This document shows, piece by piece, positions 4,538 through 45,644 of a stretch of 45,644 nucleotides of DNA (within the stretch, counting starts at the first letter, position 1; every line of letters begins with the position of its first letter). Source of the DNA: Natrinema thermotolerans DSM 11552 (lineage in GTDB: Archaea > Halobacteriota > Halobacteria > Halobacteriales > Natrialbaceae); NCBI GenBank assembly GCA_000337115.1, contig AOIR01000004.1, positions 1,303 through 46,946 on the forward strand. Direction: 5' to 3'. A model generated the notes under the pieces. That model searched no databases and was not told where the DNA came from. It saw only the letters and a list, made by a program, of their open reading frames with translations. Made by a program: the position numbers and the translations under genes.

Positions 4538-4560
4538 ACGCGGTCCTCGCCCCGACGGAC

Positions 4561-18118: not shown

Positions 18119-18247
18119 ACCGGCCCGTCATCGCTGTCGGGGAAAACGATGGCGGACGAGCGGTCGGTGGGTATCGGGTCGAGAGCAGTGGGGCCGCTCG
18201 AGCGCCGTATTGAAAGCAGACTTGCGTATGCCACCCGACTCGAACGT

Positions 18248-18385
18248 GCGGTGGCGCGCGCTCTCAACTGCTCGAGCGACGGCGAGAGCAGTTGATGACA
18301 CTGTGCGAGGGATGAGTGAGTGACCAACGGGAACGAATGAATCGGCTGGGGAGGACGTGGTAATCCCTAGTAGCCACGATAGCAG
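18248..18385 (+). repeat. Dispersed structured intergenic repeat, copy B
   Basis: The short form, running GCGGTGGCGCGCGC to CACGATAGCAG. The hairpin arms TCAACTGCTC (18264-18273) and GAGCAGTTGA (18286-18295) pair perfectly over 10 bp around a 12-nt loop GAGCGACGGCGA. The arm sequence is unrelated to those of the other copies. Confidence 0.85.
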
Positions 18386-18422: not shown

Positions 18423-18552
18423 CTGCTATCGTGGCAACACGGAAGGGCCTCACCCTCCCCAGCCGATTCGCTCACTTCGTTCGCTCATCCCTCGCACAGT
18501 GTCGTCGATCGACCTCACTATCGTTTGGCCGATCGACAGCGCGCGCCACCGC
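18423..18552 (-). repeat. Dispersed structured intergenic repeat, copy C
   Basis: The same family in inverted orientation, 37 bp from copy B and facing it. Arms at 18504-18514 and 18527-18537 pair over 11 bp with one G-U wobble; the loop reads AAACGATAGTGA on the element strand. Confidence 0.85.
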
Positions 18553-33077: not shown

Positions 33078-33179
33078 ACACGGGGATTCGCTCGGAGCGT
33101 GAAAAGGGTGTACGCTCGTTTCGAGAGGACTCCCCCGGGGCCTGGATAGATGTCAGCCCGAGGAATAGAGAGTGCTGCT

Positions 33180-33312
33180 CTGCTATCGTGGCAACAGGGA
33201 GTGGCCACACCCTCCCCAGCCGATTCGCTCGGACTCCGTCCTCGCTCATCCCTCGCGCGGCTTCGAACGACGGTTCGCCGTCGGCTCACCGTCGCTCAGC
33301 ACGCGCCACCGC
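33180..33312 (-). repeat. Dispersed structured intergenic repeat, copy D
   Basis: The short form in the spacer between the Nudix and agmatinase genes. Arms 33265-33274 and 33288-33297 pair over 10 bp with one G-U wobble; the loop on the element strand is GAGCCGACGGCGA. Left end reads GCGGTGGCGCGTGC, right end CACGATAGCAG. Confidence 0.85.
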
Positions 33313-38312: not shown

Positions 38313-38447
38313 GCGGTGGCGCGCGCTGCCGGCCGACCGAGCGCTAGCGAGGACGGCCGAGAACATTGCGCGAGGGATGAGTGAGCGACTGAAAGGAGCG
38401 AACGAATCGGCTGGGGAGGGCGAGGAAATCCCTGTTGCCACGATAGA
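38313..38447 (+). repeat. Dispersed structured intergenic repeat, copy E
   Basis: The short form running GCGGTGGCGCGCGC to CACGATAG; the last bases diverge. Arms at 38329-38338 and 38351-38361 form a stem with one mismatch; the loop is GAGCGCTAGCGA. Confidence 0.8.
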
Positions 38448-43577: not shown

Positions 43578-43757
43578 GCAGTGGCGCGCGCTTCGATCGA
43601 CCGAGTGGTAACGAAGGCGGCCGACGACACTGCGCGAGGTCGTTGCGAGTAGTGCGTGACTAACGGTTCCGCACACCATGAGAACTGGTGCCACGTATAC
43701 ACGTGACTAGAAATCAGCTGGGGAGGGTGTAGCCACGCCGTGTTGCCACGATAGCAG
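43578..43757 (+). repeat. Dispersed structured intergenic repeat, copy F (long form, degenerate)
   Basis: Left end GCAGTGGCGCGCGC and right end TGTTGCCACGATAGCAG match the family. The insert resembles that of copy A (ACCATGAGAACTGGTG and the segment ending AAATCAGCTGGGG), but the GCGAGGGATGAG block and the stem are degraded. Confidence 0.75.
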
Positions 43758-43847
43758 GATACGATTCATTCTCACTGTCGTCGAATACGCTGCACCAGTC
43801 GTTCCTCGAGCCCGCCGTTTTTGACCGCTCGCTCCCTACGGACGACC

Positions 43848-45289: not shown

Positions 45290-45608
45290 TCAGTCGTCCT
45301 CGAGTTCGTCGGCCCGTTCGCGGGCCTCGGCCGCCCGCTCGCGGAACTCCTCGATCCGCTGGGTCAGCTTCTTGCCCGCGGTGTAGGCGAACTCGTCGGG
45401 CATCATCCCGTAGTCGATCTCGAGGGTGATCATCGTGTCACAGCCCTCGACGATCTCGGGGGCCCAACTGCCCTGTGCCAGTTTCGACTCGTCGGTGACG
45501 ATCGCCTCGCCGTCCTCGACGTCGATAAAGGCCGAGACGATGTTCCAGATGTTCGGATTGCTCGAGCTGACCTCGTCGAACAGGCCCTCGAGACGCGACC
45601 CTTTGATG
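45290..45608 (-). CDS. Unrecognised protein, N-terminus lost at contig end
   Basis: The reverse strand codes for at least 106 residues ending in REFRERAAEARERADELEDD, an amphipathic acidic helix. The visible part includes GLFDEVSSSNPNIWNIVSAF and EIVEGCDTMITLEIDYG. The frame continues into the adapter as MCIRDS, a known artefact peptide of the Tn5 mosaic end, so the true N-terminus is unknown. The function cannot be named. Confidence 0.6.
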
Positions 45609-45644
45609 CTGTCTCTTATACACATCTCTGAGCGGGCTCAAGGC
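45609..45644. other. Tn5/Nextera library adapter (not genomic)
   Basis: The 19-bp Tn5 mosaic end CTGTCTCTTATACACATCT is exact at 45609-45627. The following CTGAGCGGGCT...CAAGGC resembles the reverse complement of the 454-style Nextera adapter, with two bases apparently missing (expected GGCAAGGC). Genomic sequence therefore ends at 45608. Confidence 0.95.

Follow-up and report, generated by a model that had tools for sequence, protein, structure and literature searches.

Nextera-type adapter sequence at a contig end of Natrinema thermotolerans DSM 11552 and the false protein start it creates

Where does the chromosome stop and the sequencing library begin at the end of this contig, and what does the boundary do to the gene that crosses it and to the reliability of the sequence around it? 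The window, by which we mean the whole 45,644-nt stretch analyzed, corresponds to C4:1303–46946 in a genome of 68 contigs (3.9 Mb); since C4 is 46946 bases long, the window end is a true contig end. The last 36 bases (45609–45644) are not archaeal DNA. The genomic sequence ...ccctttgatg is joined directly, at 45608/45609, to CTGTCTCTTATACACATCT (45609–45627, plus strand), which is the exact 19-base Tn5 mosaic end (19/19 match; reverse complement of AGATGTGTATAAGAGACAG) and is followed by CTGAGCGGGCTCAAGGC (45628–45644, plus strand), an early-Nextera tail of 454 derivation. The first-pass annotation had read an exact mosaic end and a 454-style Nextera tail here, and both the mosaic end and the junction were borne out. 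The tail is indeed the 454-derived early-Nextera B tail, but not a perfect copy of it: relative to CTGAGCGGGCTGGCAAGGC, the GG after CTGAGCGGGCT is absent, so that the first 11 bases agree, the two Gs are missing, and the tail then ends with the last six bases, CAAGGC (reverse complement of GCCTTGCCAGCCCGCTCAG minus two Gs; oligonucleotide sequence in PMC3699833). Oligonucleotide synthesis error, read error or an assembly tip are candidate causes of the two-base loss.

Mosaic ends elsewhere in the genome lie where the assembly breaks. At ≤1 mismatch 33 sites were found, 30 of them exact. Eighteen exact sites are at contig ends, 12 are followed by a single N, with between 0 and 18 tail bases in front of it, and none lies within continuous sequence (this count took in the 30 exact sites; the three one-mismatch sites, two with an N inside the match, were left out). 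The draft state of the assembly, also claimed previously, is supported. Tails at the exact sites were assigned as A in 10 cases and B in nine, with 11 too short to assign; both tails thus occur in this genome, as in the Epicentre Nextera kit, and the mosaic end is identical to that of the kit. The window tail is the only one of the 30 that deviates from an A or B prefix, an unexplained point that counts against the adapter reading.

Two other origins of the 19-mer can be weighed on these data. Coincidental similarity in native sequence has practically no probability, the 19-mer occurring once in the window at ≤2 mismatches where 100 shuffles gave an expectation of 0.00, and its 30 exact copies falling at assembly breaks. 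The mosaic end resembles the natural ends of Tn5, which is the sole point for reading it as a Tn5/IS50 end resident in the chromosome. That reading is nevertheless extremely improbable: all 30 exact copies sit at assembly breaks, most are then followed by kit tails, and the corresponding position in a relative, G015, does not have the sequence. A search of the genome for the Tn5 transposase family gave no match, although the search was weak, matching none of its 14 controls either. We conclude that the last 36 bases are almost certainly leftover library-preparation adapter from an Epicentre-style Nextera tagmentation, a data-quality point without biological content and no new biology. Reading inward from the 30 exact mosaic ends, the first base is G or C in 27 (uncorrected p = 0.001) and the ninth is C in 15 (uncorrected p = 0.03). 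Both skews agree in direction with the target preference of Tn5, a modest effect; G at position 6 (18/30, p = 0.002) is unexplained, and we do not relate it to that preference.

The adapter interrupts a gene on the minus strand. Positions 45290–45608 encode the genuine C-terminal part of a conserved haloarchaeal protein of unassigned family, 105 residues after the mixed codon, with its 5' end missing. These 105 residues are 99% identical to those of G015 and are present in 29/29 genus genomes searched (own genome included); a Pfam search of the segment matched no family. Read through the adapter, the same frame gives a 111-aa ORF, MCIRDSIKGSRLEG... (45290–45625, minus strand), which gene calling would take for a complete gene. 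Its first residues are MCIRDS, and the codon for the S is itself mixed, AG coming from the adapter and C from the genome. The homology to G015 runs up to the junction, beyond which the G015 reading frame runs on upstream as an ordinary gene, with no adapter sequence at the corresponding place. Because the gene continues through the junction there and the true N-terminus here is lost in the gap between contigs, MCIRDS is a false start, as had been proposed; relatives have about 38 other residues in its place. That MCIRDS is in frame with the gene is a one-in-three accident. The further claim that any protein called through the adapter begins MCIRDS holds for one frame; a second gives MSPLRDVYKRQ from a TTG.

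The length of the intact protein can be estimated from relatives. A script searched 30 relatives' loci for a motif that follows the junction (KGS) and detected it in 15, the loci used here; in all 15 the nearest upstream Met lies 39–41 residues before KGS. In G015 the N-terminus before the motif reads MTRDDTDDSPADLRERAARDEEIADALEDLLEELRDED-I, and relatives start MTRDDTDDS.... By this comparison the true protein has about 143–147 residues, of which some 38 at the N-terminus are replaced by MCIRDS in the 111-residue ORF. A 55-residue query for the missing N-terminus, run against the own genome, hit nothing but the end of C4 and two weak, unrelated sequences, so that the N-terminus was found on no contig. 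The gene at 45290–45608 should be annotated as 5'-partial.

We located the continuation of the chromosome by synteny. The G015 DNA upstream of the junction matches the start of another contig of the N. thermotolerans assembly, C5 (C5:172–1306 at 94%, and also C5:38–119, within a repeat), and in the same comparison the match to C4 starts exactly at the junction. The start of C5 and the end of C4 therefore lie next to each other in G015, which shows that the two contigs are neighbours; given the same spacing as in G015, about 250 bases would be missing between them. One copy of a repeated intergenic element overlaps or adjoins the start of C5, which is the likely reason that the assembler stopped there.

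The element is about 140 bases long, is repeated through the genome and has conserved blocks such as GCGAGGGATGAGCGA and AATCGGCTGGGGAGGG..GTGTTGCCACGATAGCAGA. Copies were found in the window at 1439–1636, 18242–18385, 18423–18552, 33177–33256, 38313–38446 and 43578–43758, and at L030:1075–1216; two of the window copies have an extra inner stretch. When the G015 upstream DNA was aligned to the N. thermotolerans genome, 54/64 alignment pieces fell in this element, some copies giving two pieces. An Rfam search of the window, this element included, found nothing.

The contig end is best explained as follows. When an Epicentre-style Nextera library was prepared, transposase carrying mosaic-end oligonucleotides (Tn5) cut the genomic DNA beside base 45608, and the mosaic end with its B tail was attached at the cut. 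Untrimmed reads presumably ran through a short fragment into the adapter, and assembly of the adapter-containing reads would then have left C4 ending in it. The true chromosome continues via the roughly 250 missing bases into C5, the gap holding the first 38 or so codons of the gene. The source project was probably an Illumina one, a point taken up below.

Next, we considered how far the adapter extends among relatives. The mosaic end was found in 17/125 genomes of the family and was absent altogether from the other 108; a reversed control pattern was found in none. The early-Nextera tail was present in 17/17 mosaic-end-positive genomes vs 0/4 mosaic-end-free controls. Among 19 named relatives, the adapter occurred in 6/6 with a WGS prefix beginning AOI (AOIA, AOID, AOIL, AOIO, AOIP, AOIT) vs 0/13 others (Fisher 3.7e-5); the 19 overlap the 125, some showing the same counts, and the two tallies are not independent. 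The AOI records probably belong to a 59-genome haloarchaeal project, and we infer that the window's genome comes from it too. That project used Epicentre Nextera libraries, Illumina GAII/HiSeq only, and A5 assembly (PMC4230888). The paper discusses Natrialba aegyptia and Natrialba taiwanensis, two of the six adapter-bearing AOI species, and describes removal of E. coli contigs; the words '454' and 'adapter' are absent from its main text.

These records bear on the sequencing platform, since the tail had been taken to show that the assembly came from a platform with homopolymer errors. The tail sequence does match the 454 adapter and the tails derive from 454 primers (PMC4928872), the 19-base tails being the 3' parts of the Roche 454 A/B adapters. 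However, a Tn5 mosaic end, as in the window adapter, is not part of the 454 primers by themselves, and Epicentre's Illumina-compatible Nextera oligonucleotides contain exactly these 454-derived tails (PMC3699833). The tail has also served as an Ion Torrent tag (PMC7204839), and Nextera XT has been run on a MiSeq for another genus (PMC3990103). The tail does not identify the platform. With the likely source project sequenced on Illumina GAII/HiSeq, an origin of the adapter in a Roche 454 run, with the homopolymer errors to be expected of it, is very unlikely.

The reading frames of the window point the same way. Selection by codon composition gave 35 gene-like ORFs for the window and 47 for a 60-kb stretch of G015, and 31/35 window ORFs have a counterpart in G015, most over their full length. 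Over the 45-kb window, no G015 gene matched in two frames at >75% identity; the excess of homopolymer frameshifts expected of a 454 library was not seen within this window, to which the comparison was confined. The frame comparison gives no support to the homopolymer-error warning and does not prove the genome free of such errors. Apparent frameshifts in the window should not be blamed on 454 homopolymer error from the tail alone. A raw blastn alignment of the window to G015 contained 102 gaps, 96 of them not multiples of three; this count was rejected as a measure of frameshifts because many gaps cancel in clusters or lie between genes. One-base differences from G015 were seen at 4553, in a G run between two ORFs without a counterpart, and at 968, where the gap in the window is outside any run of ≥4, near the 5' end of the gene cut by the window start.

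The practical value of the finding lies in the systematic recurrence of the artefact through a group of reference genomes. Very probably, a set of publicly available haloarchaeal reference genomes produced by a single project still has dozens of adapter junctions per genome, and has put false MCIRD(S/R) N-termini and gene ends into protein databases and comparative studies. In the present genome, an MCIRD reading frame ≥60 residues long starts at 15/30 adapter junctions; not all of these frames need be real genes. Among the papers found by a literature search, none mentions MCIRDS or MCIRDR; DVYKRQ occurs in all of them. Among the papers listed on Nextera adapter contamination of assemblies, none is obviously about this case. 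In these assemblies, failure to find a gene at a contig end is weak support for its loss. The tbpE gene missing from Natrinema pallidum has been suggested to lie at a contig boundary (PMC4230888), and contigs that end in adapter inside genes offer a concrete way for an absence of this type to arise.

Several adapter-bearing genomes also contain two mosaic ends facing each other within about 50 bases (G054:C27; G070:C15, C18 and C28; G072:C65 and C80; G106:C32), as if adapter-ended contigs had been scaffolded across a tiny gap. The IMG/VR viral contig IMGVR_UViG_2547132121_000013 (L106) has the B tail and the mosaic end at its start (1–30).
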